This document shows positions 5,876 to 56,761 of a stretch of DNA of 64,000 nt, piece by piece (the first letter of the stretch is position 1; every line of letters starts with the position of its first letter). The stretch is from Planococcus sp. MB-3u-03 (GTDB lineage Bacteria > Bacillota > Bacilli > Bacillales_A > Planococcaceae), in NCBI RefSeq assembly GCF_002833405.1, contig NZ_CP025135.1, positions 2,957,501 through 3,021,500 of the forward strand. Direction: 5' to 3'. The notes below the pieces were generated by a model. That model was given only the letters and a program-made list of their open reading frames with translations, was not told the DNA's origin and did not search any database. The translations under genes were made by a program, and so were the position numbers.

Positions 5876-5911
5876 TCAAAAAACCGGTACGCAATTGCGC
5901 ACCGGCTGAAT
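5876..5911 (-). terminator. Terminator after the aldo/keto reductase
   Basis: Minus strand GCCGGTGCGCAATTGCGTACCGG forms a hairpin followed by T6, eight bases past the reductase stop codon. Confidence 0.6.
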
Positions 5912-5919
5912 GTGGTAAA

Positions 5920-10704: not shown

Positions 10705-10850
10705 CAGCCTTCCCCCTATTCTAAGAAAATTGCCTTTCATCTCTTAGATAGATGGAAACTGCGGAAAAGGAGACAGGATTGTGAAAGTTTTTTAAATAAT
10801 TTTGCTGTGAATTTTGGCAACCCCAAAGCAGCAGTGTTTCTATTGAAATT

Positions 10851-11087: not shown

Positions 11088-11127
11088 GTAAATTCCTCCT
11101 GTTTGAGTAGAATTATTTTATAAATTA

Positions 11128-11149
11128 AATATACCCTTTGGGGTATATT
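11128..11149 (-). promoter_or_regulatory. CsoR/CstR-type operator
   Basis: AATATACCC-TTTG-GGGTATATT, a perfect 9-4-9 palindrome matching the TACCC/GGGTA operator of CsoR-family repressors, directly upstream of the glutaredoxin gene. Confidence 0.7.
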
Positions 11150-11275
11150 TCTTCAAGTAGATTGCTTACATATTTGAGCGCAAAGATTATATTCCCAGCA
11201 GTAATTTAGATAGCCCTTCCTTAAGAAACATTTTTACTATAATCTAGTTATAAACAAAGGAGAGGATTTTCTACC

Positions 11276-11875: not shown

Positions 11876-11891
11876 CAAATTAAATTAATAT

Positions 11892-11940
11892 CAAAGGACC
11901 ACAGAGGTAGCAGTGAAGCCGCTCCCTCTGTGGTCCTTTT
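11892..11940. terminator. Bidirectional terminator
   Basis: AAAGGACCACAGAG/CTCTGTGGTCCTTT stem with a 21-base interior, between the convergent genes ending at 11875 and 11939. Confidence 0.8.
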
Positions 11941-14365: not shown

Positions 14366-14678
14366 CCTCGATTAGAAAGATTCTTTCTTTAAATCCGCCG
14401 CGCTTCTCGGCTTTTTTCACGCGAACTTCTTCAACTTCCTCCAATGAAGATCCATTGAGTTCAGCGGCTGCGTGGATTAGCTCCAGAATATCTGCAAGCT
14501 CTTCGACTGCATCTTTTGGATTATCAGTTTCCTCATATTCACGAAGCTCCTCAGTGATTTTCTTTGTTACTTCTGTTTTGTATTCTTCATCTGATAAAAT
14601 GCGAGTCTTAAATTGAAGGTTGCTGTTCTCGATTACTTGCGGAATTTTGTCTCTCACTAACTTGTTGTATGTAGGCAT
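14352..14678 (-). CDS. MazG-like nucleoside triphosphate pyrophosphohydrolase
   Basis: A 108-residue all-alpha protein of the phosphoribosyl-ATP pyrophosphohydrolase/MazG group. It starts MPTYNKLVRDKIPQVIE and holds the metal-binding pattern EELREYEE about residue 43 followed by EELADILEL about residue 62 (ExxE and ExxD). Members hydrolyse nucleoside triphosphates to monophosphates and PPi. ATG at 14678 follows AAGGAGGATATAGA. The stop overlaps the helicase start, indicating translational coupling and joint function. Confidence 0.85.
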   Translation of the reverse strand: MPTYNKLVRDKIPQVIENSNLQFKTRILSDEEYKTEVTKKITEELREYEETDNPKDAVEELADILELIHAAAELNGSSLEEVEEVRVKKAEKRGGFKERIFLIEVEDE

Positions 14679-14783
14679 TCTATATCCTCCTTCATTTTCA
14701 AAAATACTATTAACTCAATTCTCTATACATTCCGGGATACACATACAAAGATTTAAAATAGCTAACTGAGCTAGCCTCTTTAG

Positions 14784-14951
14784 CTAACTTTTTCGCACAT
14801 TCGGATGAAATGTATATAATATCATTTTACAATAAATATCTTCATTCAAATCATAATCTAAAATCATTACTACTTCTTCATTCTCATCTTTTAGCTTCTT
14901 AAACCATATTAAAGAATCTATATAATTACCTAAAATTAAATTAATATGCAT
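14784..14951 (-). CDS. Short hypothetical ORF, 55 aa
   Basis: ATG at 14951 preceded by GAGGGGTGTTAGT; encodes 55 residues (MHINLILGNYIDSLIWFKKL at the start, a mid-protein acidic patch, ending FHPNVRKS). AT-rich compared with the helicase operon. It may be a genuine small gene or the start of a larger lost gene. No family recognised. Confidence 0.35.
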   Translation of the reverse strand: MHINLILGNYIDSLIWFKKLKDENEEVVMILDYDLNEDIYCKMILYTFHPNVRKS

Positions 14952-16780: not shown

Positions 16781-18279
16781 ATGCGTGCATTTCTTAAGTT
16801 GATCGGGCTCATGGTTTTTGTTACTAATTCTATCTGCTTGTTCTGGTAATCGTGGTGGAATGGATTCAAATATGATGAACGGAGAAGATTCTGACCAAAG
16901 TATGGGAGGGATGAATCAAGGGGAATGGGTTCAATGATGGATCATGGGAATGTACCTTCCCTTGCCTCTTCTGAGGGTTCCAATGAATTAACTATACCTC
17001 CATTGCTTGAAAAGCAGCAGGGTCAAAATTATGATTATGAAGTCGTTGCCCAACAAGGAACTACCGAGTTTTACAAAGGAATATCAACGGAAACTTACGG
17101 ATATAATGGCGACTTACTAGGCCCCACTCTCACAATAGAAGAAGGCGAAAAGTGGAGGTTAAAATTACAAATGACTTAAACGAACCTACTACATTTCATT
17201 GGCACGGACTTGAAGTTGCTGGTGAGATAGATGGAGGACCTCTTGATGAAATCCAACCTGGAGAAAGTCGGATTATAACGCTCGAAGCAGATCAACCAGC
17301 GGCAACTTTATGGTATCATCCACACGTTCATGAAATGACCGCTGAGCAAGTATATAGAGGCTTATCTGGTATGTTGCTTATCGATAGCTCCGATAAGGAA
17401 GAACTAGCTATACCTAACGATTATGGAGTTAACGATATTCCCTTGATTTTCCAAGATCGCCTTTTTAGTGAAGACAAACAGTTGAATTACAACCAACTTA
17501 TGGATGAAGATGGCACATTAGGAGACGTTTCTATCGTGAATGGCACAATCAATCCTAAATTAACGATTACAAAACCAATTATGCGTTTCCGTGTATTAAA
17601 TGGATCGAATGCACGAAACTACACATTTAGTTTAAGCAATGACGCTAGCTTTACTCAAATTGCTTCTGATGGAAGTTTGCTCGATGAACCTGTAGAAATA
17701 CAAGAATTAACATTAGCGGCATCAGAGCGCGCAGAAATTTTGATAGATTTTTCAAAACTAACAGCCGAAGAATCACTCGCTATCATAAACGATGAAGGCG
17801 TTGAATTATTGCCATTTGATGTGAAACTTGAAGATGCTACTGCAAATCCAACGGAAAAGTGGACGACAGAGGAGCCATTCTTAACGCCGGAAGAAAAAGA
17901 AATGCCTATTGAAAAAAACATTGAATTGTTTGGCATGATGGATATGGTAACGATTAACGGCAAAAAATTTGATGCCGATCGCATTGACTTACGCCAAGAA
18001 CAAGGCGTTACTGAAGTATGGGAAGTGTACAATAAGAAGGATATGATGGGTGGTATGATTCATCCGTTTCACATTCATGGGACGCAATTTAAAGTGATTT
18101 CTCGTGACGGCAAGGAAGTAGACCCTAGCGAACAAGGCTTGAAAGATAGTGTATTAGTTAATCCAGGTGAAAAAGTGAAATTGCTCGTGACGTTTCCAGA
18201 GAAAGGTGTATATGTTTTTCACTGTCACATCTTAGAGCATGAAGATAGTGGCATGATGGGACAAATTGAAATCTATTGA
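16781..18279 (+). pseudogene. Multicopper oxidase lipoprotein, frameshifted
   Basis: Copper-oxidising multicopper oxidase of the CueO/Mco type. Four copper-ligand motifs are all present: FHWHGLEV, YHPHVHEM, HPFHIHG and FHCHILEHEDSG, plus the Met-rich N-terminus. A lipobox-like LILSACSGN is readable only after a frameshift near 16815; further shifts occur near 16920 (before MGSMMDHGN) and near 17150 (GEK to VEVKITND). The 375-residue tail from 17152 is uninterrupted and carries all copper ligands but has no export signal. The ATG at 16781 follows GAAAGAAGGG. Role would be Cu(I) oxidation outside the membrane. Probably inactive unless the frameshifts are sequencing errors. Confidence 0.85.
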
Positions 18280-27223: not shown

Positions 27224-29362
27224 TTAAACAGCTCTATTTCTTAGTTTCAATGTCATCGCATTGATAGCCACGATAACCGTGGACACGGACATCAGAACTG
27301 CTCCTGCGGCAGGAGCCAACGTAATCCCAATGGAGGCTAGAACACCCGCCGCTATGGGAATGGCAATAAAGTTATAACCGGCTCCCCACACGAGGTTCTG
27401 TTTCATTTTACTGGTTGTTTTATTGGCCAATTCGATAAAGGATTCAATATCGCCTGGATCCGACTGAGTCAAAATCACATCAGCGGAATCGATGGCGACT
27501 TGAGTTCCGGCACCGACTGCTATCCCAACGTCTGCTATTGCAAGGGATGGTGCATCGTTGACGCCATCGCCGACCATGATAACCGTTTGTCCATTATTTT
27601 TCAGTGATTCCACTAAATCATATTTATCTTGCGGTAATTGATTGGCTCTGTATTCAATGCCCAGTTCCTCTGCTACTCCTTGGGCAGCCGTTTCATTGTC
27701 ACCTGTAGCCATAATCGGTTTTATATTGTAATGCTTCAATGCCTGTATCAGCGTTCTGCTCGTTTCTTTCAATTCATCGCCTAATGCGACCGTACCGATC
27801 GGATTCCCGTCCTCAACTAGTATACTTAATGTTGCCCCTTTGGGAACATCCACCGCTACATCTCTTCCAAGTGCCTTTTGGCTGATCAATTCGTATTTGC
27901 GGCCATTGGCGTTTCCTTCTATACCCGCACCCGACACAACATCAATCGAATCAAAGTGGACAGGCTGAATCCCTTGTTTCTCAGCGTATTGGACGATTGA
28001 CTGGGCGATTGGGTGGCTGGACCCGCCTTCAATCCCTGCCATTAACGCCGCGATTTCGGCTTCGGTATGTTGACCATCCAGTGTTTCCATGTTCAAAACT
28101 TTAAATTCGCCAGTAGTCAATGTACCCGTTTTATCCAGTATCATTACATCAGCCTTAGTTGCCAGCTCCAATGCTTCGCGGTCTTTCACCAACAGCCCGC
28201 GGCTTGCACCTAAACTGGTGCTTCGTGCAATAACCAGCGGAATGGCAAGGCCGAGAGCGTGTGGACATGCAATGACTAATGTCGTAACCGTAAAAAGAAC
28301 AGCGGTTTGAATGTCAGCAATGTACAGCCAAACGACAAAAGCGAGGAAAGCCGTCGCAATGGCGATATAAAACAGCCAGCCGGCTACTTTTTGAGCCAGA
28401 TTTTCAGCTCTTGAAGGTTGATCCTGCGCCTGGCTTATCAGGGTTTGTACTTGGGAAATGAACGATTGGTCGCCGGTTTCCTGTACTTCAAGATATAAGA
28501 TGCCTGCACCGTTCGTGGAACCGCCGATCACTTTGTCTCCGGCTCCTTTTTCAATGGGTTTAGATTCCCCCGTCAGCAAAGCTTCATTGATCCGCGAGGT
28601 GCCTCTTTTGATGATGCCATCGGCAGGGACGTTTTCTCCGGCCTGAACCCGTACAAGGTCTCCGACTTTCAGCTCATTTACGGGACGCGTCTCGATCGAA
28701 TCATTTTCCAATACCACATGTGCATCTTTCGGCACCAATTCGGCGAGCGATTTTTGCGCGTCTCCTGCTTCTCCGACAGCCTTCATTTCGATCCAGTGTC
28801 CAAGGAGCATGATCAACAGCAAGGACGCGAATTCAAAGAAGAAATCCATGATGTGATCGCCGGTTACGTAGCGTGCCAGCACGGCGTAAATGCTGTACAA
28901 ATAGGAAACGGATATCCCTAATGAAATAAGGGCCATCATGCCCGGTGCTTTTTCCTTAAATTCAGCGATTGCACCTTGATAGAAGGGTTTTCCGCCATAA
29001 ACCAATAAGATAGTTGCTAATACAGCGACCACAATATCCGAGTATGGAAAAGTAAATTGGAAAGGAAGCCGAACGTCCATCATCGGCGACAATAATAGAA
29101 CGACAATGCCCAAGGGCAGCGACTTCAGGAAAATTTCTTTGAAATTCCCATGATGGTGATGTCCATGGTCACTATGATCGTGGCCACCATGATTGTGATG
29201 GGCATGATCATCATGAATTTTGGCAGGATTGCTGTCGTCTTGAATGCCTTCTTTCACTTGGTCTTCATGGTACGAATGCCCAACATGTTTGGAATGATCC
29301 ATTTTACTGTGATCTACCTGTTCGTCTTGATGGTGGTGATGGTCTTTATCATTTTTAGCCAT
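27224..29362 (-). CDS. copB: Copper-translocating P1B-type ATPase (CopB, CPH type)
   Basis: A 712-residue membrane ATPase exporting copper (CopB class). The N-terminal 80 residues are His-rich in place of an HMA domain (for example HDHSDHGHHHHG). The metal-transport helix carries CPH (VIACPHALGLAIPLV), the phosphorylation site is DKTGTLT and the hinge is VGDGVNDAPSLA. Eight hydrophobic helices fit the family. ATG at 29362 with GGAGG upstream. A CsoR-like operator lies at 29443-29465, and copZ is just upstream on the same strand, making a chaperone-pump unit. Confidence 0.95.
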   Translation of the reverse strand: MAKNDKDHHHHQDEQVDHSKMDHSKHVGHSYHEDQVKEGIQDDSNPAKIHDDHAHHNHGGHDHSDHGHHHHGNFKEIFLKSLPLGIVVLLLSPMMDVRLPFQFTFPYSDIVVAVLATILLVYGGKPFYQGAIAEFKEKAPGMMALISLGISVSYLYSIYAVLARYVTGDHIMDFFFEFASLLLIMLLGHWIEMKAVGEAGDAQKSLAELVPKDAHVVLENDSIETRPVNELKVGDLVRVQAGENVPADGIIKRGTSRINEALLTGESKPIEKGAGDKVIGGSTNGAGILYLEVQETGDQSFISQVQTLISQAQDQPSRAENLAQKVAGWLFYIAIATAFLAFVVWLYIADIQTAVLFTVTTLVIACPHALGLAIPLVIARSTSLGASRGLLVKDREALELATKADVMILDKTGTLTTGEFKVLNMETLDGQHTEAEIAALMAGIEGGSSHPIAQSIVQYAEKQGIQPVHFDSIDVVSGAGIEGNANGRKYELISQKALGRDVAVDVPKGATLSILVEDGNPIGTVALGDELKETSRTLIQALKHYNIKPIMATGDNETAAQGVAEELGIEYRANQLPQDKYDLVESLKNNGQTVIMVGDGVNDAPSLAIADVGIAVGAGTQVAIDSADVILTQSDPGDIESFIELANKTTSKMKQNLVWGAGYNFIAIPIAAGVLASIGITLAPAAGAVLMSVSTVIVAINAMTLKLRNRAV

Positions 29363-29499: not shown

Positions 29500-29703
29500 T
29501 TATACGACGTCATACCCTTGTTCTTCAATCGCTTTCTGAATTTCGTTTAATGATGTCTTGGCAGTATCATAGTCTACTGCCACTTCGCCTTTTTTAAGAT
29601 CAACTGTCACAGATGAAATCCCTTCGAGTTCACCGACGCCTGTTTCAACCGAGTTTGCACAGTGGCCGCAGGACATACCTTGTACTTTTAATGTTTCAAT
29701 CAT
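29500..29703 (-). CDS. copZ: Copper chaperone CopZ
   Basis: A 67-residue HMA-domain protein with the Cu(I)-binding GMSCGHC (residues 9-15) and the characteristic EQGYDV end, the exact size of CopZ. It carries Cu(I) to the copper ATPase encoded immediately downstream. ATG at 29703 has AGGAGGAATAAT upstream. A perfect CsoR-like palindrome sits about 40 bases ahead. A second copZ-like gene lies at 42780. Confidence 0.95.
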   Translation of the reverse strand: MIETLKVQGMSCGHCANSVETGVGELEGISSVTVDLKKGEVAVDYDTAKTSLNEIQKAIEEQGYDVV

Positions 29704-29741
29704 TATTATTCCTCCTAAAGTAATATTTCCTTAAACTTAAC

Positions 29742-29758
29742 ATACCCATATAGGGTAT
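29742..29758 (-). promoter_or_regulatory. CsoR-like operator before copZ
   Basis: ATACCC-ATATA-GGGTAT, a perfect 6-5-6 palindrome of the CsoR operator type, 39 bases upstream of copZ. Confidence 0.7.
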
Positions 29759-29966: not shown

Positions 29967-30299
29967 ATGGCTCATGAACAACATCAGGAATTGATTCGGG
30001 CATTACATGATTGTGCAGCGGAATGTAACCATTGTTTTGACGCTTGTCTGCAGGAAGACGATGTGAAGATGCTAGCACAGTGCATTCGATTAGACCGGGA
30101 ATGCGCGGACATTTGTGCATTTTTGGAACATGCCATTACTCGCAATTCACCGTTCGTTTCCGAACTGGCAGCCGTTTGCGCAACCATTTGCGAAGCTTGC
30201 GCAGAGGAATGTGAGAAGCACGCCGATCATCATGAACATTGCAGACGCTGTGCGGAAGCTTGCCGTAGATGTGCAGAAGCTTGCCGTAACGCCGCATAA
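29967..30299 (+). CDS. Four-helix copper-storage-like protein (Csp/DUF326 type)
   Basis: A 110-residue cytosolic protein with about 15 Cys residues spaced along amphipathic helices (CAAECNHCFDACL, ECADICAF, CATICEACAEEC, HCRRCAEACRRCAEAC). This is the pattern of Csp-type four-helix bundles that bind many Cu(I) ions in their core. No signal peptide, so it is a Csp3-like cytosolic buffer. ATG at 29967 follows AAATGGAGGTTTTAAC. Its neighbour copZ-copB on the opposite strand and the shared promoter motif support a copper-detoxification role. Confidence 0.88.
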   Translation: MAHEQHQELIRALHDCAAECNHCFDACLQEDDVKMLAQCIRLDRECADICAFLEHAITRNSPFVSELAAVCATICEACAEECEKHADHHEHCRRCAEACRRCAEACRNAA

Positions 30300-33747: not shown

Positions 33748-34293
33748 TCAGCTCGGTTTGATCTGTTCCATATAACTCGCAATATCCTCTTCGGACATTT
33801 CACCCGTAATGATTTTCTCGATTTTTCCCTCTTGATTGACCAACAATGTAGTGGGCAATGGACGAATATTATAGGCTTCCATAACACTTTTGTCCTTATC
33901 GATAACAATCGGGAACGTTAAATTTCGCTGTTCAGCAAATTGTCTCACTTCATAATCGGATTGCGCAATATTGACAGCGAGTATCTCTACACCTTGGTCC
34001 TTGTATACTTGGTACTGCTTTTCCATCAGCGGGAACTCTTTTTCGCACGGTTTGCACCAAGTACCCCAAAAGTTCACGAACACCCCCTGCCCTTTGTACT
34101 CAGACAGCTGATGCTGTTCCCCATTCAAATCCGTCAAAGCAAAATCGGGTGCCCAATCTCCAACTTGCAGCAATTCGTTTTTCTCTTTGGTTAATCCGTT
34201 GTAGATAGTAAATGCAATAGCGACGACCAGAATGAACAAAATACTTGTCCTCATAATCAAGCGATTTCTCTTTTTATCCTTTTTAGCAGCCAT
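33748..34293 (-). CDS. resA: Membrane-anchored thiol-disulfide oxidoreductase ResA (copy 1)
   Basis: A 181-residue TlpA/ResA-type protein: N-terminal anchor (SILFILVVAIAFTIYNGL), then a thioredoxin fold with WGTWCKPCEKEFP (CxxC) and cis-Pro in IRPLPTTLLV. ResA reduces apocytochrome c heme-binding cysteines outside the membrane using electrons from CcdA. ATG at 34293 follows AAGGACGTGAC. From the VFVNFWGTW motif to the C-terminus it is nearly identical to the copy at 55489-56025. Together with ccdA downstream-facing at 34332 it forms a thiol-reduction pair within the copper genes. Confidence 0.92.
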   Translation of the reverse strand: MAAKKDKKRNRLIMRTSILFILVVAIAFTIYNGLTKEKNELLQVGDWAPDFALTDLNGEQHQLSEYKGQGVFVNFWGTWCKPCEKEFPLMEKQYQVYKDQGVEILAVNIAQSDYEVRQFAEQRNLTFPIVIDKDKSVMEAYNIRPLPTTLLVNQEGKIEKIITGEMSEEDIASYMEQIKPS

Positions 34294-34331
34294 ACAATGT
34301 CACGTCCTTCCTAGATGCTGGGTTGAGTCCA

Positions 34332-35039
34332 TTAAAACCCTGTAAATCCACCCGTAAATTGCGATAAAAAAGCGATGATTTCTGTCAGCATGTCAAAGTA
34401 AAGCAAAACGCCCATCAGAATCATTAATGCTCCTCCTATTGACATGAAAAGAGCGCTCTTCTTCTTCAAGAAAGTCATTTTCTCAATAAAAAACGACATT
34501 AAGAGAAAAGGAATTGAAAATCCCAGAACGTAAAACAGCATATAGAGTAAGCCACTGTCCGGATCCGCTACTCCGAGTGCAATAACTCCTGCAAGTATGG
34601 GACCGGTACACGGTGTCCATCCAGCTGCAAAGCCAATGCCGATCAGAACAGAACCCGCGTATCCGGAGGGCCTTTTCTGGAACTGTAATTTCTTATCCGA
34701 CAGCAGGAAGTCGAATTTCAGAATACCGGTTAGGACTAAGCCAAAAAACACCATCAAAATAGCGCCCAATTGACGTAGAAGAACTTGATATTCCAAGAAG
34801 AAGTTTCCGATAAGCGAAGTCGACAAGCCCAACGCTAAAAAAATGATGGAGAAACCTATTAAAAATAGAACCGTATGAATCAAAGCCGTGCTCCTCATCA
34901 TTCCCTTGCCCGTCTTTAACTCATTGACTGAAACTCCGGTAATGTAGGATAAAAAAGCCGGATACAAAGGAAGGGAGCATGGAGAGATAAATGATAAAAG
35001 CCCTGCGCCAAACGCAAGATACAAACTAATTTCCGCCAC
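34332..35039 (-). CDS. ccdA: Cytochrome c biogenesis protein CcdA (copy 1)
   Basis: A 235-residue, six-helix membrane protein passing reducing equivalents from cytosolic thioredoxin to ResA. Conserved Cys pair: LLSFISPCSLPLYPA and AGWTPCTGPIL. The start is a GTG at 35039 behind AGGAGGTCTACAA; this matches the ATG start of the paralogue at 56761, whereas the longer frame to 35084 would add 15 residues without a site. Almost identical to copy 2 over the whole length, implying recent duplication. 38 bases separate it from resA copy 1, same strand. Confidence 0.92.
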   Translation of the reverse strand: MAEISLYLAFGAGLLSFISPCSLPLYPAFLSYITGVSVNELKTGKGMMRSTALIHTVLFLIGFSIIFLALGLSTSLIGNFFLEYQVLLRQLGAILMVFFGLVLTGILKFDFLLSDKKLQFQKRPSGYAGSVLIGIGFAAGWTPCTGPILAGVIALGVADPDSGLLYMLFYVLGFSIPFLLMSFFIEKMTFLKKKSALFMSIGGALMILMGVLLYFDMLTEIIAFLSQFTGGFTGF

Positions 35040-35418
35040 TTGTAGACCTCCTATTACAGTAAGTTGAATCCTCTTCTTTATCATTTTTGTATCCCTTAGG
35101 AATCAAATGAAATTTTCTATATAAGACTCGGGGAATTTCAAGGTATGTAAAATTAAATACAGCCCCTCTCTTAACTTCTACTTCCCCGTGCTTGCTTAAC
35201 CGTTCCAGAAGACGTCAACCAATCCAGTTTACCGATTAATTCTTGATTTTCTGTGCAGTTTCTTCTATTAAACTGTGAACTTCTCCTATCGGTTCACGAA
35301 CTTGCCACAATCCGGCGACCCGGACCCCAGAATAAGAAAATGTCATGATTCCTGCACACAATATGCAAAATTAAGGGGTAGAGTAACTACAGACAACCGC
35401 AGAAAGAGGGAGATTGCA
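35040..35418. other. Divergent intergenic region with the ydhK promoter
   Basis: About 380 bases between ccdA and the ydhK-like gene. Contains the promoter at 35243-35271 and an untranslated leader of about 145 bases with a GTTCACGAAC-like repeat near 35290. No ORF supported. Confidence 0.45.
35243..35271 (+). promoter_or_regulatory. Promoter with TGTGCAG in the spacer
   Basis: TTGATT (-35), 17-base spacer containing CTGTGCAG, then TATTAA (-10). The first 16 bases are identical to 16659-16674. Reads toward the ydhK-like gene. Confidence 0.5.
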
Positions 35419-36205: not shown

Positions 36206-37657
36206 ATGAAAACAAATCAGCTTTTGAACGAATCCGGTCTGATCTCCCGATTAGATTCCAGAATATTAGAATTAGACATCAAGGGGATTGCCGATAACTC
36301 AAGCGATGTGGCAAAAGGTTTTGTGTTTGTTGCTATTAAAGGATTTGAAATTGATGGTCACGGGTTTATTGACCAGGCAATTGAAAAAGGGGCAGCCCTT
36401 GTCATCGGAGAACAAGGAATTACCCGGTTAGGTGTCCCTTATTTACAGGTGGAAAATAGCCGGAAAGCGCTTGGCATCCTGGCCAGGAATTTTTATGGCC
36501 GTCCATCTGACCAGAAAATAATGATTGGAATTACGGGCACCAACGGAAAAACGACGACGAGCTATATGCTCCAGCACTTTCTGGAAAGCAACGGTATGAG
36601 TTGTTCTGTCATCGGTACCAACCAAAATATTATCAATGGCGAAAAAATGAAAAGCTCGAACACCACACCAAATTCACTCGCTCTCCATAAACTGTTGACC
36701 CTCAGTCAGGATGAGGTCGTCATTATGGAAGTTTCTTCTCATGGACTGGCCCAGTATCGGTTAGAAGGCATTGAATTTGATTACGGCTTGTTCCTCAATC
36801 TTCACCATGAACACCTGGATTATCACAGTTCCATGGAAGAATATTTTCAGGCGAAGCTTACAATGTTCAATCAGATGAAAGAACATGGGATTGCTGTAGT
36901 GAATACAGATAATGAGTGGGGACGAAAGCTCTGTGGAATCCTGCAAACAAAGGGAAAACCGATTTATGCAATTGGCACATCCACTGAATGCAACCTGCGT
37001 GTTGCAAAATTTCATTCACTGTCCTCCACTATGCGGGTGATTGAAAGTAACGAAACGTATCAAATGGTCGCTGCGATGACCGGAATGCACAATATGTATA
37101 ACACCTTAATGGCCTACGGAACATCATTGTTGCTGGGTATCCCCAAAGAAAAGCTCTTAAACTCCATTCACCATTTCAAGGGAGTCGATGGACGCTTTGA
37201 GATCACGAAACTGGCCAAGGGCTCGATCGTTATTGTGGATTATGCCCATACTCCGGATGCCATCTCTTACTGCCTGGAAACTGCAAAATCACAAGGGGCC
37301 CAACGAATAACCCATATTTTCGGCTTTCGTGGAAATCGAGATGCCAGCAAGAGAAAGCACATGCTATCCATATCTGCTGAAATGAGTGACCGCTACATTT
37401 TAACGTTGGACGACCTGAACAATGTTTCTCCAGGAGATATGCTGGAAGTTTTAAACCAACTAAATGAAACATACGGCAACTCAAAAGGCAGCATCGTTCC
37501 AGACCGTACACTCGCCATTCAGCAAGCAATCCATGAAAGCAAGGAAGGCGACTGGATTGTGATTACCGGTAAAGGACACGAGAAATACCAGCAAACCTTT
37601 CATTTACCGACTGATTCGGACCGGGAAACCGTCAATTATATAATAAAGCAGAACTAA
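36206..37657 (+). CDS. MurE-like Mur ligase with altered acceptor motif
   Basis: A 483-residue UDP-MurNAc-tripeptide ligase homologue. It has the P-loop ITGTNGKTTTS (about residue 109), the nucleotide-sugar motif NTTPNSLAL, the carbamylated-Lys site QAKLTMF and the third-domain DYAHTPDAI and GKGHEKYQ. The acceptor-amino-acid motif, usually DNPR (diaminopimelate) or DNPA (lysine), reads DDLNN, and the usual GGDRD reads RGNRD, so substrate choice cannot be predicted. ATG follows GAGAGGTCACC. The carboxypeptidase gene follows 25 bases later, suggesting an operon for cell-wall modification. Probably a second, non-housekeeping MurE. Confidence 0.85.
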   Translation: MKTNQLLNESGLISRLDSRILELDIKGIADNSSDVAKGFVFVAIKGFEIDGHGFIDQAIEKGAALVIGEQGITRLGVPYLQVENSRKALGILARNFYGRPSDQKIMIGITGTNGKTTTSYMLQHFLESNGMSCSVIGTNQNIINGEKMKSSNTTPNSLALHKLLTLSQDEVVIMEVSSHGLAQYRLEGIEFDYGLFLNLHHEHLDYHSSMEEYFQAKLTMFNQMKEHGIAVVNTDNEWGRKLCGILQTKGKPIYAIGTSTECNLRVAKFHSLSSTMRVIESNETYQMVAAMTGMHNMYNTLMAYGTSLLLGIPKEKLLNSIHHFKGVDGRFEITKLAKGSIVIVDYAHTPDAISYCLETAKSQGAQRITHIFGFRGNRDASKRKHMLSISAEMSDRYILTLDDLNNVSPGDMLEVLNQLNETYGNSKGSIVPDRTLAIQQAIHESKEGDWIVITGKGHEKYQQTFHLPTDSDRETVNYIIKQN

Positions 37658-37682
37658 AATAATCACTCAGGAGGGAGTAGTT

Positions 37683-38860
37683 ATGAAAAAACTAAGTGTT
37701 GTTTCAACCATTTTAATCATGATCAACACTTTAATCGTTTCGTCCGTTTTCAGTAAAACTGATGACCCTTCCCTGCCAAACGTATCCAGTGAAGCAGCTA
37801 TTGTCATGGAAGCAACGACTGGAGAAATCCTCTATGAAAAAAATGCACAGTCGCAGATGTATCCTGCCAGCCTAACAAAAATTGCCACAGCCATTTATGC
37901 AATTGAAAACAGAAAATTAAATGATGTTGTAACCATCAGTAAAAAAGCACGCAATACGGAAGGCACCCGTGTTTATTTGGAAGAGGGAGAACAAGTGACT
38001 TTAGAAAAACTGTTGCTGGGCCTCTTAGTCAACTCTGGAAATGATGCCGGCGTCGCCATTGCTGAACACATCAGCGGCAGCGTTGAGTTATTTTCTGCTG
38101 ATATGAATTTATATTTAGAAGATGTAATTGGCCTGCGGAATACGAACTTCGAAAATCCCCACGGTCTTTTTGATCCCGAGCATGTTACGACAGCCGAAGA
38201 TTTAGCGAAGTTAACCCGATATGCGATGAAGAACGATGAATTCATGAAAATATTTGGAACAAAAGAACTGCCCTGGAACGGTGAATCCTGGGATACCACG
38301 CTTTATACCCACCACAAACTATTAAGGGAAAAACCTTATGAAGGCGTTACGGGTGGTAAAACCGGGTTTGTGCCAGAAGCAGGCGTCACGCTGGCCACGA
38401 CAGCCAAAAGAGAAAACTTGAATTTAATTGTCGTCACCTTAAAAAGCGACACAGAGGCAGAAGCTTATGCTGACACTGTTCAACTTTTGGATTTTGGATT
38501 AGAAAATTTTGAAACAGTAAGCATTCCGAAAGAAAGCAGCTTTTTTGCCGGTGATGTGGAATACATTACGCCAGGCGATTTCTTTTATACACACCAAACA
38601 GATGAGCAAGTGACGATAGCTGTAAAAGAAGATGGACTATTAAGGATTACTGATCAGGATGGCACTCTTTTGTCTTCTTATCAGTTTCCCGTTGTCAGTG
38701 CTTCTGAGACAAACCGTCCTTCTAATCCTGAAGACGTTCGCTCATTTTCCCACCTGGGATTTTAAGTTCAATCTATTTGTTAATCCTCGTCGTTGGCTTA
38801 TCAGGATTAGTGTATTACCGAGTTCGAAAAACGGATATAGAACGCACTTCTCTATCGTAA
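37683..38860 (+). CDS. D-alanyl-D-alanine carboxypeptidase (DacA/DacF type), C-terminal anchor frameshifted
   Basis: Penicillin-binding-protein-5 type D,D-carboxypeptidase that trims peptidoglycan pentapeptides. The signal peptide is residues 1-24; catalytic motifs are SLTK (AYPASLTKIA-like context), SGND and KTG (GGKTGFV). The plain frame ends at 38765. The +1 frame continues PPGILSSIYLLILVVGLSGL followed by a basic tail to TAA at 38860, a typical membrane anchor, so an indel near 38740 removes the anchor. ATG follows GGAGGGAGTAGTT. Middle gene of the MurE-like/DacA/VTT set. The enzyme could still act as a soluble secreted form. Confidence 0.88.
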
Positions 38861-39606: not shown

Positions 39607-39649
39607 ACGGAGGTTCGAAAAAATTAAACACTGAATGGAGCAACAAATT

Positions 39650-39850
39650 ATGTGTGGATTTACTGGATTTATCGGCGAAACGAGTAATTCGTCAGCCGTT
39701 TTGGAACAAATGATGAACACCATCATACACCGTGGACCTGATTCCTCTGGTATGTTTATTGATAACAAAACTGCTTTAGGCTTTCGCCGCCTCAGCATTA
39801 TCGATTTAGAGGCAGACAGTCAGCCCCTTTACAATGAAGATGAATCATAG
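39650..39850 (+). pseudogene. Truncated AsnB-like glutamine amidotransferase
   Basis: Only the first 66 residues of a class II amidotransferase remain: Cys2 (MCGFTGFI), HRGPDSSG and GFRRLSIIDL, then a stop at 39848. GGAG 10 bases upstream of the ATG and a TATAAT box show it was once a real gene. After the stop the sequence is unrelated. It is not a copy of the gene at 21239 (low similarity). In the cell-wall cluster it may have been a diaminopimelate- or glutamate-amidating enzyme. Confidence 0.75.
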
Positions 39851-40169: not shown

Positions 40170-41609
40170 ATGAACGAGCAGTTGCTGGCCCACCAACCTC
40201 TCCAACCTAAGACAGATCGAGAACGGCTGAAGATTATCGCCATTTTAGCTATACCTGCTGTAATAGAGAATTTCTTTCAAACATTGCTGGGTTTTGTGGA
40301 TACGTACTTTGTTTCACACATCAGTTTGGCAGCCGTTTCAGCAGTCGGGATCACGAATGCGGTCCTTGCGATTTACTTTGCCGTCTTTATGGCAATCGGT
40401 GTCGCTGCCAATGTTCGAATTGCTAACTTCCTGGGTGCAAACCAACCCGAAAAAGCCAGGCACATTTCCCAGCAGTCCATTATTCTGGCAATCCTTTTTG
40501 GGATTCTCACCGGCTTGGCTACGTGGTTCTTTGCAGAACCGCTGCTTCGGCTGATGGGCATCGAAGATGAAGTCCTGGAGTTGGGTTCGCAATATTTTCG
40601 GATTGTCGGAATTCCTTCTGTCATCATGTCTTTGATGTTTGTAATGAGTGCAATTCTGCGTGGAGCCGGTGATACCAAAACGCCTATGAAGATCAGTATA
40701 GTCATTAACGGCATCAATGCTTTGCTTGATTATGTGTTGATATTCGGTTTCCTGTTCATTCCGGAACTTGGAATTGCCGGTGCTGCCATAGCCACGGTCA
40801 TTTCCCGTTTAATCGGCACTCTAGCCCTTTTCTATTACATCAACAAAGAAAAAGTGCTGGCATTCAGAAAAGAATATTGGAAGCCAGACAAACAACATCT
40901 AATGGAACTCTCTACTCTTGGCGCTCCTGCAGCAGGAGAACGATTGGTCATGCGGGCCGGACAGATTGTCTATTTCGGTTTCGTCGTCGCACTTGGAACC
41001 AATGCCTTTGCGGCTCATCAAATTGCTGGAAATGTTGAAGTGTTCTCTTATATGATCGGATATGGCTTTGCTACCGCGGCAACGATTTTGGTTGGCCAGC
41101 AGATCGGTGCCGGCAATCTGGAAGAAGCCAAAAAGTATGCGAAGCTTTCCACTCAGTTCACGGTAGTATGTATGACGTTATTGGGGGGAGTCTTGTTCTT
41201 CTTTGGAGAATGGGCCGCCACTTTCTTTACGGAAGACCCCGAGGTGATCAGAGATATCGGAACCGCTTTAAAAATATCGGGCCTTTTCCAGCCTTTCCTT
41301 GCCGTGCTCATGGTTTTGACCGGAGCGTTTCAAGGCGCGAACAATACGAAATTCCCTATGTACTTGACCGCTTTTGGGATGTGGGCCATCCGCACACTGC
41401 TCGTGTATTTGTTAGGAATACAGTTAGGCTGGGGTTTGGCTGGCGTGTGGCTGGCGATAGGCATTGATATTGCTTTTCGTGCAGTAGTATTAGTAATTCA
41501 ATTCAGTCGCGGAAGATGGATGGCACTTGAGAAAGCACCAGAACCTGAGGCACAATGCCATCCACAAACAACTAAAGAAAACATGTCTACAAATGCAAAC
41601 AACTACTAA
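40170..41609 (+). CDS. MATE family efflux transporter
   Basis: A 479-residue pump with 12 predicted helices in two six-helix halves. Hallmarks: AIPAVIENFFQTLLGFVDTY, RIANFLGANQPEKARH, LRGAGDTKTPM in the first half and FAAHQIAGNVEVFSYMIGYG and LTGAFQGANNTKFPMYLTA in the second. MATE proteins export cationic drugs with Na+ or H+. ATG at 40170 behind GGAAAGGAGAAATCC; the longer frame to 40125 is rejected. It is intact, unlike its relative at 25501-26926. A His-rich protein gene follows 24 bases downstream. Confidence 0.93.
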   Translation: MNEQLLAHQPLQPKTDRERLKIIAILAIPAVIENFFQTLLGFVDTYFVSHISLAAVSAVGITNAVLAIYFAVFMAIGVAANVRIANFLGANQPEKARHISQQSIILAILFGILTGLATWFFAEPLLRLMGIEDEVLELGSQYFRIVGIPSVIMSLMFVMSAILRGAGDTKTPMKISIVINGINALLDYVLIFGFLFIPELGIAGAAIATVISRLIGTLALFYYINKEKVLAFRKEYWKPDKQHLMELSTLGAPAAGERLVMRAGQIVYFGFVVALGTNAFAAHQIAGNVEVFSYMIGYGFATAATILVGQQIGAGNLEEAKKYAKLSTQFTVVCMTLLGGVLFFFGEWAATFFTEDPEVIRDIGTALKISGLFQPFLAVLMVLTGAFQGANNTKFPMYLTAFGMWAIRTLLVYLLGIQLGWGLAGVWLAIGIDIAFRAVVLVIQFSRGRWMALEKAPEPEAQCHPQTTKENMSTNANNY

Positions 41610-41633
41610 TGGAGAAAAAAGGAGGAGTTTCTT

Positions 41634-42338
41634 TTGGAACATGAACATCACAAAAATCATAAACATCATGATATGGATGAAAAACTTCTTGAAGTCCAAG
41701 TAAATACCACTTATAACTCCGGGATAGTGACGATTAAAGTCCGTGATAAAGAAAACAATGCTGTAGCTTTAACTGAAACTCACGAAAAAAGAATGCACCT
41801 GGTTATTACCAGTGCAGGTTTAGAAACTTTTTTACATGTCCATCCCATCGAAAATGCTTCTGGAGATTTCGAAGTGGAGGTAGAACTGCCTCCGGGTCGT
41901 TACCTTGCTTTCGCGGATATCACCCCGGTAGGAATGACTTACGTTATCGAGCCAATTACGATAACAGTTGGCAAAGTCACTGAAACTCCTAGCATCGATT
42001 GGGAGATGCTTGCGGAAAGGGATAGTGCTACAAAAAAAGTCGAGGGTAAAACCGTTACGTTTCACCATCCAAAGCTGACTGCCGGAAAATCAGCTGCTCT
42101 ATCTTTTGATTTAAACGGCGAAACTCCTTTGCCTTACTTAGGGGCATTAGGCCATGTAGTTGTGCTGGATGAACAAGGAGAAAAATTTATCCATGTCCAT
42201 CCAGTATCAGAAGATAAACCCGTATTTGAAGCTCAGTTCCCTTCACCTGGTTTTTATAAACTATGGGTTGAATTCAAATTCTCAGACGCGGGCGTTCTCG
42301 CTTTTCCATTTGTCATGAAAGTCGCTGATAGAAATTAA
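41634..42338 (+). CDS. His-rich N-terminus protein, unknown function
   Basis: A 234-residue protein with no signal peptide. The N-terminus is His-rich (MEHEHHKNHKHHDMDEK); two similar beta-rich halves follow, each with a LHVHP/IHVHP motif (FLHVHPIE, FIHVHPVS), suggesting paired Ig-like metal-binding folds. It starts with TTG at 41634 behind AAAGGAGGAGTTTCTT. Next to the MATE gene and facing a copZ gene, it is probably a metal-handling protein of the island. I do not recognise an established family. Confidence 0.75.
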   Translation: MEHEHHKNHKHHDMDEKLLEVQVNTTYNSGIVTIKVRDKENNAVALTETHEKRMHLVITSAGLETFLHVHPIENASGDFEVEVELPPGRYLAFADITPVGMTYVIEPITITVGKVTETPSIDWEMLAERDSATKKVEGKTVTFHHPKLTAGKSAALSFDLNGETPLPYLGALGHVVVLDEQGEKFIHVHPVSEDKPVFEAQFPSPGFYKLWVEFKFSDAGVLAFPFVMKVADRN

Positions 42339-42403
42339 CTTGCAAGAAAGAGCATAAATTAATTCGGTATCACTTTGGACATTAACCTAAAAACATAAAA
42401 CTA

Positions 42404-42463
42404 AAAAACGCCTTGCATTGAAAAAAGGTATGAAAATACCAAAATTCTATGCAAGGCGTTTTT
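42404..42463. terminator. Long bidirectional terminator hairpin
   Basis: AAAAACGCCTTGCAT/ATGCAAGGCGTTTTT arms separated by about 30 bases with an inner GGTAT/ATACC stem. Confidence 0.75.
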
Positions 42464-42465
42464 CT

Positions 42466-42700
42466 GTATAGCTTCAAAAAAGGGTCAAAAAAGGGTACTG
42501 AAACAACTCTATCCTGAGAAAGAAATCCAATGTCATCCAGATGAAGCGCAACGGCAACTATACAAGTGCGGAAATTATGGAAATTTACCAAATCACAAAT
42601 AGATTGCAAATCGAAACCTAAATGTCACGGAACTAGGCAGGCAAAACGTACCGGATGGTGAGGTCTCTTTTGCTAACCGGCATCCCAGATGGTGATGTTT
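42466..42700 (+). mobile_element. Decayed transposase remnant
   Basis: Successive frames read LKQLYPEKEIQCHPDE, then KRNGNYTSAEIMEIYQITNR and QIET, stop, MSRN, stop, AGKTYRM, like the helix-turn-helix N-terminal part of IS3-type OrfA proteins. Frames are broken by stops; no inverted repeats identified. Tentative. Confidence 0.3.
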
Positions 42701-42779
42701 GGATGGCGTCCACCTCAAATAAGCAAGTTTCAAAAAAAGCGAGCTTCCAATATAGGGAACTCACTTATATCATCTATTT

Positions 42780-42986
42780 TTATGCTACGTCATAGCCTTG
42801 TTCCTCAACAACTTCTTTCATATTCTCTGAGGAAACTTTTGATTCGTCATAGGTAACTTTCACTTTACCAGAGTTTAGATCTACCTCTGCAGCAGATACT
42901 CCTTCTAAACCTTTTAGCGCGCCTTCTACTGATATTTTGCAGTGGCCACAAGTCATTCCCCTAACATCTAAAGTTTTGGTTTGCAT
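42780..42986 (-). CDS. copZ: Copper chaperone CopZ (second copy)
   Basis: A 68-residue HMA protein with GMTCGHC (residues 10-16) and the EEQGYDVA end. Divergent from the copZ at 29500, so it is a separate lineage. ATG at 42986 with AAGGAGGTGAGAAAAC. It lies 51 bases downstream of the GAPDH gene on the same strand, so the two are probably one transcript, pairing a copper chaperone with a glycolytic enzyme. No CsoR box seen immediately upstream of copZ itself. Confidence 0.93.
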   Translation of the reverse strand: MQTKTLDVRGMTCGHCKISVEGALKGLEGVSAAEVDLNSGKVKVTYDESKVSSENMKEVVEEQGYDVA

Positions 42987-43037
42987 GTTTTCTCACCTCC
43001 TTTTTGAAGATTTAAAACCGGCTATTTCAATTGACAT

Positions 43038-44042
43038 TTATTTAATGACTTGAGCAAAATGTTCAGTCAAACGAACCAGATTAGATACAAATCCATATTC
43101 GCTGTCGTACCAAGAAACAGTTTTAACAAGCTGCTTATCCCCATTTTCAACGATATCAGTTAATGTGGCATCAAAAATACCTCCGGCTGAAGTTCCAACA
43201 ACGTCTGAGGACACAATTAGCTTTTCAGAGTATTCAAACGAGGGACTCGCAGCTTCTTTCATGGCTTCATTCACTTCTTCAATTGTTACTTTTCTTTCTA
43301 AGTTTGTATAAAACTCCACTATTGCCCCACCTAAAAGTGGTACTCTCACTGCCGTTCCGTCAATAATTCCGGTTAATTCAGGAATGACTCTTCCGACAGC
43401 TTTTGCTGCTCCAGTAGAAGTCGGAATTGCATTCATCGCTCCTGCCCGTCCGCGTCTCATATCCGTATTAGGGCTATCATGTAATTTTTGCGAAGGTGTA
43501 TAGGCTTTAATTGTAGTCATATAACCAGTTATAATTCCAAAGTTATCATGTAATACTTTCGCAACTGGAGCTAAATCATTAGTTGTACAAGAAGCTGAAG
43601 AAATGATCATGTCGTCTTTTGTAACAATGCTCTCATTAACACCGTAAACAATCATCTTCGTTTCCTGATCTGCTGGAGCAGTTATAATTACTCTTTTAGC
43701 ACCTGCGTCAAGATGTGCCTGAGCCTTATCAGCCGTTTTATAAATACCGGTTGCTTCTAACACGATATCAATTTGCAACTCATTCCACGGGAGATCTTTT
43801 GCATCAGCTTCTTGGTAGAATTTAATTTCCTTCTCACCAACAACCAAGACATTTTCATGTACCTGAACATCATGCTTTAATCGCCCATAAGTTGTATCAA
43901 ATTCTAATAAATAAGCTAAGTTTTCAATATTAGCTAAATCATTAACAGCAACCAGTTCCAGTTCCGAATTTGTATCTACTAATCTTCTTAATGTTGTTCT
44001 TCCTACACGTCCAAACCCATTAATAGCTAATCTAGTGGTCAT
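43038..44042 (-). CDS. gap: Divergent type I GAPDH with substituted copper-ligand residues
   Basis: A 334-residue NAD-binding GAPDH: INGFGRVGR at the N-terminus, catalytic Cys152 in SASCTTN and the RAGAMNAIPTSTGAAKAVG loop. Two normally invariant active-site positions differ: the second Cys of SCTTNC is Asp (SCTTND) and the catalytic His of MTTIHAYT is Lys (MTTIKAYT); codons GAT and AAA are unambiguous. These two residues together with Cys152 are the ones implicated in Cu(I) poisoning of GAPDH. Adjacent copZ supports a copper-tolerant or repurposed enzyme. ATG at 44042 follows AGAGGAGGAAAATA. Gene is full length and uninterrupted. Confidence 0.92.
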   Translation of the reverse strand: MTTRLAINGFGRVGRTTLRRLVDTNSELELVAVNDLANIENLAYLLEFDTTYGRLKHDVQVHENVLVVGEKEIKFYQEADAKDLPWNELQIDIVLEATGIYKTADKAQAHLDAGAKRVIITAPADQETKMIVYGVNESIVTKDDMIISSASCTTNDLAPVAKVLHDNFGIITGYMTTIKAYTPSQKLHDSPNTDMRRGRAGAMNAIPTSTGAAKAVGRVIPELTGIIDGTAVRVPLLGGAIVEFYTNLERKVTIEEVNEAMKEAASPSFEYSEKLIVSSDVVGTSAGGIFDATLTDIVENGDKQLVKTVSWYDSEYGFVSNLVRLTEHFAQVIK

Positions 44043-44636
44043 TTATTTTCCTCCTCTAATATAGATTCAGACATCTTTTAGCTCGAATAAACAGGCAGCC
44101 CGATTCTACTAAGTTATTACAAGTATTGCACGACTTTCATTTCATATCTTTCTATTCCTACTTAGAAAACTCCTTCATTCCGTAAATTAATTCTTTAATT
44201 GTTTTATTTCCTGCTTTTCACTGAATAACGTTACTTATCCAGCGAATGATAAGTCGTTCTGCTGGGGTGAATCCTACATTTGAATTGCAGCTTAAATTGA
44301 TATATCCACACAATTGCGAAACTGTATTTTAAAGTACAACAATAGAGAAAAGGGAGAGTAGATGCTATTCCAAGCGCATCTTCCGTCCCTTCCTCTTTGT
44401 GCAGCTTCCGATAATTCATGATATGTAAACCATTTTAATCAGCTACATTTCAAATTACCACTCTCGCCATTCTATTGTTACTTCTTCGGTATACTTAATC
44501 TCTTTTTCACTTGTTTATATTAAAGTTTAAGGTTAATTTTAAAACAATAAATAAACTTTAATTTATGTGGAAGTTTGCTTTGTTGTTAATAATGGCTTTA
44601 CCATCCATGCTAATCTTTAATTCATTAAGAGAGAAA
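44043..44636. other. Gene-free stretch with repeat copy 3
   Basis: About 590 AT-rich bases. Contains a CCGATAAT repeat (44407-44432) and a small GATGC/GCGCATC hairpin near 44360. Short ORFs here have no ribosome binding site and I do not support them. Confidence 0.4.
44407..44432 (+). repeat. Dispersed repeat, copy 3
   Basis: TTCCGATAATTCATGATATG followed by TAAACC, matching copies at 19876, 27064 and 51331. It is the right-hand border of the copper island. Confidence 0.5.
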
Positions 44637-50525: not shown

Positions 50526-51101
50526 TTAGAGTTGTAAATTATTTTTGCATTCCTTTTCCTTATTAATAGCTCTATATAATGTGGCAGCTGAAATTCCAGT
50601 AGCTACCTGTATTTCCTTCACGCTCATTCTTCGTGAATGATAGAGAGCAATCGCTTGATTTAACTTCTGCTGATTTACTTTTGGTCTACCGCCTTTTCTT
50701 CCTCTCGCACGAGCTGCCTTTAATCCAGCCATTGTTCGTTCCCGAATAATATCTCGTTCAAATTCAGCTAATACTGATAGCATCCCGAACATCGCTTTCC
50801 CAGCTGCAGTACCAGTATCGATATTATCTTGAATACTGACAAACTCGACGCCCTTTTCTCGAAGTAGTTCTGCAATTTCAATCAATCGCTTTGTAGATCT
50901 GGCTAATCGATCTAATTTATACACGACAAACTTATCGCCAGCTCGTGACATCTTTATCGCTTGTAGCAGTTCCGGCCGATCATCTTTTGCTCCAGATAAT
51001 TTCTCCTGGAAAATCTCTTCGCAGCCAAACTCTTTTAGTGCATCCAATTGTAAATTCAACGATTGATCAATCGTGCTAACTCAGGCATATCCGATAATCA
51101 T
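50526..51101 (-). pseudogene. Serine site-specific recombinase (resolvase/Bin type) with a nonsense codon
   Basis: Restored length is 191 residues. From the ATG at 51101 it reads MIIGYA, TGA, VSTIDQSLNLQLDALKEFG: the stop sits exactly where family members have the Arg of YARVS. After that the protein is complete: YKLDRLARSTKRLIE, TGTAAGKAMFGMLSVLAEFE, ERTMAGLKAARARGRKGGRP and a C-terminal helix-turn-helix (MSVKEIQVATGISAATLYRA). An internal TTG at 51059 would give a product lacking the catalytic Ser. Suggests an inactivated transposon or plasmid resolvase. Confidence 0.82.
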
Positions 51102-55488: not shown

Positions 55489-56025
55489 TTATTCGGGTTT
55501 GATTTCTTCCATGTAGCTGGCAATGTCCTCTTCAGACATCTCCCCGGTAATGATTTTCGTGATCTTCCCTTCAGGATTGACCAGCAGTGTAGTAGGCAAG
55601 GGACGAATGTTGTAAGCTTCCATTACACTTTTGGTTTTATCAATCACAATCGGAAAGGTTAAATCCCGTTGTTCCGCAAATTGTCTCACTTCATAATCGG
55701 ACTGAGCAATATTGACGGCTAAGATTTGAACGCCTTGGTCCTTGTACACTTGATATTGTTTTTCCATCAGCGGAAATTCTTTCTCACACGGTTTGCACCA
55801 AGTCCCCCAGAAGTTCACAAACACGCCTTGACCTTGGTAATCCGATAATTGATGTTCTTTACCTTCAAGATCCACTAAGGCAAAGTCCGGAGCTTCATCT
55901 CCCACTTGCAATAGTTCACTTTTTTCACCTGCAAAGCTGTTGTAAATCGTAAAAACGATGGCTCCTGCCATCACCAGTAAGATAGCCGCCCGTACATAAG
56001 ACCGCTTTTTCTTTTTAACTGTCAT
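55489..56025 (-). CDS. resA: Thiol-disulfide oxidoreductase ResA (copy 2)
   Basis: A 178-residue membrane-anchored ResA: anchor AAILLVMAGAIVFTIYNSF, CxxC in WGTWCKPCEKEFP, cis-Pro IRPLPTTLLV. Same operon as resB and resC, the classical resABC order. Nearly identical to copy 1 (33748-34293) from the redox motif onward; the N-terminal 40 residues differ more. ATG at 56025; GGGTTTTTAC upstream is a weak site. Confidence 0.95.
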   Translation of the reverse strand: MTVKKKKRSYVRAAILLVMAGAIVFTIYNSFAGEKSELLQVGDEAPDFALVDLEGKEHQLSDYQGQGVFVNFWGTWCKPCEKEFPLMEKQYQVYKDQGVQILAVNIAQSDYEVRQFAEQRDLTFPIVIDKTKSVMEAYNIRPLPTTLLVNPEGKITKIITGEMSEEDIASYMEEIKPE

Positions 56026-56053
56026 GTAAAAACCCTCATTTCTATCTAATCAG

Positions 56054-56761
56054 TTAGAATCCTGTAAATCCTCCTGTGAATTGAGAAAGGAAAGCAATAA
56101 TTTCTGTCATCATATCAAAATACAATAAAACACCCATCAGAATCATCAATGCGCCGCCAATTGACATGAAAAGCGCACTCTTTTTCTTTAGAAAGCTCAT
56201 TTTCTCAATGAACAGGGACATCAAAAGGAAGGGAATCGCAAAGCCTAACACATAAAACAGCATATAGAGGAGCCCTCTATCCGGATCGGCTACGCCAAGT
56301 GCAATGACCCCTGCCAAAATCGGTCCCGTACAAGGCGTCCACCCTGCCGCAAATCCAATACCAATCAAAACAGAACCGGCATATCCAGAGGGTCTTTTTT
56401 GGAAATGGACTTTTTTATCTGACAACAAAAAATCAAACTTCAAAATACCTGTAAGTACCAAACCGAAAAATACCATCAAAATCGCACCTAATTGCCGTAA
56501 AAGAGCTTGGTTTTCCAAGAAGAACGATCCGATAAATGAAGTGGATAATCCTAATGCCAAAAAAATGATGGAAAAGCCGATTAAAAAGAGAATGGTGTGA
56601 ATCAACGCATTGCGCCTCATCACGCCTTTTTCGGTTTTCAAGTCATTCACTGAAACACCGGTAATGTACGAGAGAAAAGCTGGATACAGCGGCAGGGAGC
56701 AGGGAGAAAGAAATGATAACAGTCCTGCACCAAACGCTAGAAGTAAACTGACTTCTGCCAC
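56054..56761 (-). CDS. ccdA: Cytochrome c biogenesis protein CcdA (copy 2)
   Basis: A 235-residue six-helix thiol transporter with Cys in LLSFLSPCSLPLYPA and AGWTPCTGPIL. ATG at 56761 behind AAGGAGATGACC. Differs from copy 1 (34332-35039) at only a few positions, mostly conservative. Upstream of resA copy 2 by 28 bases, so electrons pass CcdA to ResA to apocytochrome, feeding ResB/ResC. Confidence 0.95.
   Translation of the reverse strand: MAEVSLLLAFGAGLLSFLSPCSLPLYPAFLSYITGVSVNDLKTEKGVMRRNALIHTILFLIGFSIIFLALGLSTSFIGSFFLENQALLRQLGAILMVFFGLVLTGILKFDFLLSDKKVHFQKRPSGYAGSVLIGIGFAAGWTPCTGPILAGVIALGVADPDRGLLYMLFYVLGFAIPFLLMSLFIEKMSFLKKKSALFMSIGGALMILMGVLLYFDMMTEIIAFLSQFTGGFTGF

Follow-up and report, generated by a model that had tools for sequence, protein, structure and literature searches.

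The 64,000-nucleotide stretch of Planococcus DNA analysed here (the window) carries a gene, gapK, that probably encodes a copper-tolerant replacement for glyceraldehyde-3-phosphate dehydrogenase (GAPDH) on a mobile copper-resistance island, a reading to which we assign a probability of roughly 0.62. It is built on the observed active-site residues, on two clades of GAPDHs lacking the catalytic histidine, on their linkage to copper genes, on CopY-type boxes ahead of some members, on purifying selection and on recent transfer. Such a copper-proof spare enzyme suggests that some bacteria survive copper by replacing the enzyme that is poisoned. Acquired Dfr or Sul enzymes confer antibiotic resistance through an insensitive target enzyme, and an acquired insensitive isozyme would likewise replace the poisoned one here, although a metal ion would take the place of the drug and the targeted enzyme would belong to glycolysis. 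The features discussed are collected in Table 1.

Table 1. Features of the window and of companion genes at other loci (loci in their own numbering).
Feature	Position	Strand	Basis or remark
Multicopper-oxidase-like ORF	17152..18279	+	CueO model 359.3 bits, below cut-off 525
CopB-type copper ATPase, about 14 kb from gapK	27224..29362	-	TIGR01511, over cut-off
Second copZ, directly upstream of copB (stop codon excluded)	29506..29706	-	NF033795, over cut-off
CsoR-like palindrome upstream of second copZ	29742..29758	.	pattern search
Csp1-like four-helix Cys-rich protein	29967..30299	+	67.6 bits, below cut-off 100
234-aa gene, convergent, partly within shared block	41634..42338	+	ORF
Shared block (gapK, copZ, part of 234-aa gene)	41830..44430	.	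about 99-100% identical in three genomes; borders approximate (200-base bins)
copZ, copper chaperone, 51 bases downstream of gapK	42780..42986	-	NF033795, 103.8 against cut-off 91 bits
gapK, accessory type I GAPDH, 334 aa, complete	43038..44042	-	ORF and GAPDH-I equivalog score
Ser314 codon, replaces Asn313	43101..43103	-	alignment and codon reading
Lys179 codon, replaces catalytic His (His176)	43506..43508	-	alignment and codon reading
Asp156 codon, second-Cys position of many GAPDHs; not diagnostic	43575..43577	-	alignment and codon reading
Cys152 codon, nucleophile kept (Cys149 in usual numbering)	43587..43589	-	alignment and codon reading
Class I aldolase, L133	5852-6760		between gap and copY/tcrY
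Class I aldolase, L134	9503-10411		between gap and copY/tcrY
Class I aldolase, L209	7853-8794		between gap and copY/tcrY
Class I aldolase, L210	up to 8356		between gap and copY/tcrY
Class I aldolase, L229	9925-10815		between gap and copY/tcrY
Cys-free adenylate kinase, L136	14570-15190
Cys-free adenylate kinase, L137	1512-2132
Cys-free adenylate kinase, L208	15958-16575
Cys-free adenylate kinase, L209	804-1421
Cys-free adenylate kinase, L210	353-970

The coding strand of gapK is the minus strand, the plus strand over the same positions being riddled with stops. Its product passes the cut-off of the GAPDH-I equivalog model (TIGR01534; 385.7 against 367.2 bits) and misses those of the ArsJ-associated GAPDH (NF033735; 306.5 against 450) and erythrose-4-phosphate dehydrogenase (NF010058; 273.2 against 539) models. 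Judged by its sequence, gapK is a type I GAPDH by descent; GAPDH function is a separate claim. The host genome encodes two further GAPDHs, each 46% identical to gapK and both with the catalytic His, and gapK is therefore an accessory third copy. The motifs SASCTTND (Cys152, Asp156) and MTTIKAYT (Lys179), with the nucleophile retained, had been picked out in an earlier note on this DNA and were borne out when the ORF and its codons were re-read; the protein has a single Cys in total. gapK resembles the type I phosphorylating GAPDHs (GapA; for example S. aureus GapA1, PDB 3k73) in length and fold family and shares their nucleophile Cys and the residues of their NAD and phosphate sites; it differs from them in having Lys for the catalytic His (Arg in a second clade) and in being accessory, mobile and located beside copper genes. 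An accessory GAPDH within a metal(loid)-resistance operon has a counterpart in the family of NF033735, whose members we take to be accessory to arsenic (ArsJ) operons and whose cut-off gapK does not reach. In an AlphaFold model of gapK (mean pLDDT 78), segments 183-190, 193-207 and 277-292 fall below 50 and were kept out of the active-site claims.

The catalytic His of GAPDH matters for the rate of the reaction, and the Ala and Asn that occupy its position in PDB 7c5o and 3lc1, respectively, were presumably introduced to slow the enzyme. Among 228 aligned sequences (224 proteins drawn from the best 120 of each of two protein searches, the window protein, two housekeeping copies and a copy from genome G233), this position holds His in 143, Lys in 32, Arg in 51 and Ser in one, with one gap; basic residues alone are thus common among the 84 non-His residues read there, as against the solitary Ser. 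When genome contigs were searched with a profile of the Lys-clade alignment, the best 80 reference loci, at most 55% identical, all had His and serve as background; the Lys substitution in housekeeping GAPDHs unlinked to copper, which the earlier note had named as the finding that would count against its idea, was not encountered among them. A search of viral contigs returned 20 GAPDH loci, at most 54% identical, and copper queries against these 20 gave no cop match.

The second substitution fared differently. The earlier note took SASCTTNC as the norm for GAPDHs and reckoned that two of three copper ligands were lost, but the second Cys is not universal, being replaced by Ser in 45 and by Gly in two of the 143 His-types (96 have Cys). 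The loss of the catalytic His stands and the second Cys is no key; with the catalytic Cys and His as the suggested ligands, one of two would be gone. In the proposed signature of Asp with Lys, the Lys holds up as the mark of one clade, but Asp occurs in only 22 of the 32 Lys-types (Cys in seven, Ala in two, Gly in one); the 51 Arg-types have Gly (25), Ala (20) or Ser (6). The Cys-to-Asp exchange stressed in the earlier note was dropped as the key change, the position being variable: one of the host's two other GAPDHs has Gly there, S. aureus GapA1 (PDB 3k73), the GapA of a species in which Cu(I) inhibits this enzyme (PMC6350627), has Ser together with the catalytic His, and 47 of the 143 His-types lack Cys.

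The remainder of the active site bears on what gapK might do instead. It is possible, though rather unlikely, that gapK is a GAPDH-derived enzyme with an altered reaction, be it slow, non-phosphorylating or directed at another phosphorylated aldehyde, that aids the cell under copper stress otherwise than by replacing GAPDH. The lost His would fit such an enzyme, as would Asn313, which we take to contact the nicotinamide and which is Ser in 32/32 Lys-types (Asn in 51/51 Arg-types), and a metalloid-resistance GAPDH with its own NCBIfam model, the ArsJ-associated one, is known. However, the phosphate-site residues do not vary (Thr154, Thr182, Thr210, Gly211 and Arg233 are invariant across the His, Lys and Arg groups, and Ser151 deviates in a single Arg-type row), gapK scores as a type I GAPDH and as neither of the two other enzymes, and the class I aldolase that neighbours some relatives points to plain glycolysis. 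A copper-binding, regulatory or scaffold protein that is no longer an enzyme is improbable: the loss of a catalytic residue and the location with copZ would suit it, but the nucleophile Cys is present in all 228 aligned sequences, and the low number of Cys (one in the window protein; on average 1.47 in Lys-types and 1.96 in Arg-types against 2.69 in His-types) is the opposite of what a copper sponge would need.

In a tree of 75 chosen rows, the 16 Lys rows and the 19 Arg rows (the Ser row included) each form one clade with 100% support, with His-types in between. Forcing the two clades together costs 26.9 log units, and the AU test gives p = 0.062, by which a joint clade is not rejected at 5%. 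The His was probably lost twice independently, to go by this tree. The Lys-type is rare. The 261 genomes of the host's order contain four with a Lys-type and one with an Arg-type, and a 398-genome sample of the class has two positive genomes, both of the host's genus. Among 345 genomes of Lactobacillales, a search at E <= 1e-135 returned 54 places in 48 genomes: ten at no less than 75% identity (nine genomes) are Arg-types, and of the remaining 44, the 21 with a locus have His in 21/21, as do four more (L138-L141). Another 295 Lactobacillales genomes yielded three Lys-types, whose motif combines Lys with the second Cys. Zero matches at E <= 1e-110 came from 259 genomes of another Bacilli order, in a search run without a positive control, so that the empty result shows nothing. 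Plasmid GAPDHs of Lactiplantibacillus, Latilactobacillus, Staphylococcus saprophyticus and S. epidermidis are His-types, were used as controls and have no cop homologues nearby.

The earlier note had proposed to test whether substituted GAPDHs cluster with copper genes, and they do. If a locus counts as linked when a CopY, CopZ, CopA or CopB homologue lies no more than 8.2 kb away and shows 45% identity or better across 30% or more of the query, linkage is found at 7/7 Lys-type and 12/13 Arg-type loci, together 19/20, against 0/20 His-type controls (Fisher p about 3e-10, relatedness of loci ignored). The loci are partly non-independent, as the window, L088 and L089 carry a single module that was shared not long ago and several of the islands in Lactobacillales are closely related; flanks are shorter than 8.2 kb at some loci in all three groups. 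The 13 Arg-type loci include a broken copy in G862 and a partial copy from Enterococcus lactis in which the Arg can be read; a broken Lys-type copy in G742 is likewise linked and was left out of the count. The exception is L091, an Arg-type whose CopB-type ATPase, about 5 kb off, is only 42% identical and whose neighbours include a paralogue of Lgt and two weak matches, one Csp1-like and one cupredoxin-like; two His-type controls have a distant P-type ATPase at 34-40% identity, below the threshold. The linkage spans Planococcaceae and Lactobacillales. In the window, the earlier note's copZ 51 bases downstream is confirmed on the same strand, over the CopZ cut-off, while in Lactobacillales the Lys- and Arg-types share the order gap-(class I aldolase)-copYAZB, and the copYAZB/tcrYAZB loci of Gram-positives are the clusters that house them. 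A published map of the tcr island includes an adenylate kinase, to which the excerpts of that source assign no role; GAPDH and aldolase go unmentioned in them (PMC4511184).

CopY-type boxes stand ahead of some members. Taking the CopY operator to be TACANNTGTA, we found an exact box within 200 bp upstream of 4/12 Arg-type genes, where simple shuffles predict 0.1, and of 0/19 His-type controls; two further Arg-types have paired boxes with one mismatch each, and 3/19 His-type controls have sites with one mismatch. Two of the three Lactobacillales Lys-types have an exact box (L209 and L210, 119 bp upstream) and the third, L208, has one with a mismatch. At L090, L092 and L128-L130 the boxes lie ahead of copY, and the copY cluster takes in the gap gene. 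For the window gapK itself, the 250 bp ahead of the gene contain no exact CopY box, only a site at 242 bp that differs in one position. The single pattern used for CsoR-like sites gave no match, and a scan for promoters and terminators around the gene gave sites no more numerous than in shuffles. Copper induction of this copy would be part of the replacement reading.

gapK is under purifying selection: compared with a 90%-identical relative, dN is 0.058 and dS 0.707 (dN/dS about 0.08), and four Arg-type pairs give 0.07-0.11. Lys179 is more than a chance change, because Lys recurs in 32/228 sequences and marks a supported clade, and the gene is under this selection. The gene has also moved. Three genomes share the block from about 41830 to 44430 at 99-100% identity, whereas in one of them identity drops to 74-88% over the adjoining 40200-41800; the block has therefore spread recently. 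That gapK is a passenger or decaying duplicate riding with the island is very unlikely: the Lys-type is rare (4/261 genomes of the order), not every copy is intact (G742 has Lys-type pieces, the G862 copy has an internal stop, and the Enterococcus lactis Arg-type copy is partial and adjoins an IS3 transposase) and the three closest Arg-type pairs either differ too little for a verdict or give higher ratios (dN/dS 0.005/0.004 for L133-L134, 0.019/0.049 for L132-L134), but the five more distant pairs stay at about 0.07-0.11, CopY-type boxes precede some members and the linkage recurs in Planococcaceae and Lactobacillales. At L090, a decayed copZ follows gapK.

More probable is that gapK replaces a poisoned GAPDH. 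In S. aureus cells, GapA binds Cu(I) and is inhibited by it (PMC6350627), and S. pyogenes GapA is inhibited by Cu, with the catalytic Cys and His suggested as ligands by the authors (PMC7733945); a review places Ag(I) on Cys149 and His176 of the E. coli enzyme (PMC12007004), and GapA is mentioned once as a copper target elsewhere (PMC10233261). In the excerpts of these sources GAPDH is thus already named as a copper and silver target inside cells, on evidence from the inhibited normal enzyme. An extra normal gapA gave S. aureus no added copper tolerance (PMC6350627, again from excerpts), as would be expected if a resistant form is required, but also if GAPDH is a minor target. Literature searches over open-access titles and abstract openings, a scope that leaves subscription papers and preprints outside, brought up neither a GAPDH in a copper operon nor a natural His-less GAPDH.

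Copper poisons an ordinary GAPDH most likely through Cu(I) that is held between the nucleophile Cys and catalytic His. The paralogue retains this Cys, as well as the sites for cofactor and phosphate, and exchanges His for Lys, or for Arg in the other clade. Losing the His would remove one of the two soft-metal ligands of the Cys149-His176 pair and add a positive charge; a fixed positive charge can hold the Cys as a thiolate and is itself a poor ligand for Cu(I). Turnover without the His would then let the glyceraldehyde-3-phosphate step continue, at some catalytic cost, during copper export, and a slower but copper-blind enzyme of this kind is chemically plausible. Against a replacement GAPDH stand the weight of the catalytic His for the rate, the change of Asn313 to Ser in the Lys-types, the want of an exact CopY box or CsoR-like site at the window gapK, the L091 exception and the partial non-independence of the loci. 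If the replacement reading is true, the loss of the suspected metal ligand in GAPDHs that neighbour copper genes in two orders would show from evolution that poisoning of GAPDH counts in nature, and target replacement would join efflux, sequestration and oxidation as a route to copper resistance. The Lys and Arg clades also offer natural lineages for asking how GAPDH works without its textbook catalytic histidine.

Other enzymes accompany the His-less GAPDHs. At L209 and L210 (Lys-type) and at L133 and L134 (Arg-type), gap and copY are separated by a gene for a class I fructose-bisphosphate aldolase, with further ORFs between aldolase and copY at L133; the L209 protein scores 477.4 against a cut-off of 392 bits. 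On an Enterococcus lactis plasmid the order is partial Arg-type gap, aldolase, tcrY, ATPase, tcrZ, tcrB. The aldolase was not found at the other 16 Lys- and Arg-type and 19 His-type loci searched. The genomes of L133, L134, L209 and L210 each have one class II aldolase elsewhere. An adenylate kinase of 206 aa with zero Cys occurs at L136, L137, L208, L209 and L210 and in part at L134, and another adenylate kinase with four LID-domain Cys is present in 6/6 genomes probed. Relatives of the Cys-free enzyme at 90-99% identity lie on 55 plasmids, all from Enterococcus, one of them beside tcrB, and the best 120 protein matches comprise 101 without Cys and 19 with a single Cys. Neither an adenylate kinase relative nor the island aldolase was found in the window; the host genome encodes a class I aldolase far from it. 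That a Cys-free aldolase is a speciality of the islands is weakened by this chromosomal enzyme, which also lacks Cys. Extending the proposal from gapK to these genes, we regard as evenly poised the idea that copper islands of Bacilli carry copper-proof stand-ins (a GAPDH with His exchanged for Lys or Arg, probably twice, a class I aldolase where the other aldolase belongs to class II, and an adenylate kinase that lacks the four-Cys site of the chromosomal one), so that replacing the target would stand next to efflux and sequestration as a way of resisting metals.

The window's copper island extends well beyond gapK and copZ (Table 1). The 234-aa gene has no Pfam or NCBIfam match, and the CsoR-like palindrome was called with an assumed motif. 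The multicopper oxidase may be split (16958-18279), as a second oxidase match lies just upstream at 16958-17176. Extra copies of cell-wall and further housekeeping-type genes, MurE-like, D-Ala-D-Ala carboxypeptidase-like and an AsnB-like fragment, occupy 36206-38765 and 39635-39850, and a serine-recombinase-like ORF below all cut-offs lies near the island at 50526-51059. Elsewhere, one contig of G742 (L148, 1080-11217) holds an Arg-type gap, a shortened copB and the broken Lys-type gap, and a protein of about 89 aa with a Cys-rich C-terminus and no NCBIfam match recurs in copper clusters (L092 9045-9311, with matches at L128-L130, L132, L134, L135, L148, L209 and L210). By eye, the copper island of L128 has extra MurE-like and Lgt-like genes (10806-12260 and 13988-14848), L134 has a pyruvate-oxidase-like ORF near its Arg-type gap and aldolase (4868-6655), and the window has two near-alike pairs of thioredoxin-like and CcdA-like genes about 20 kb apart (33748-35084 and 55489-56761).
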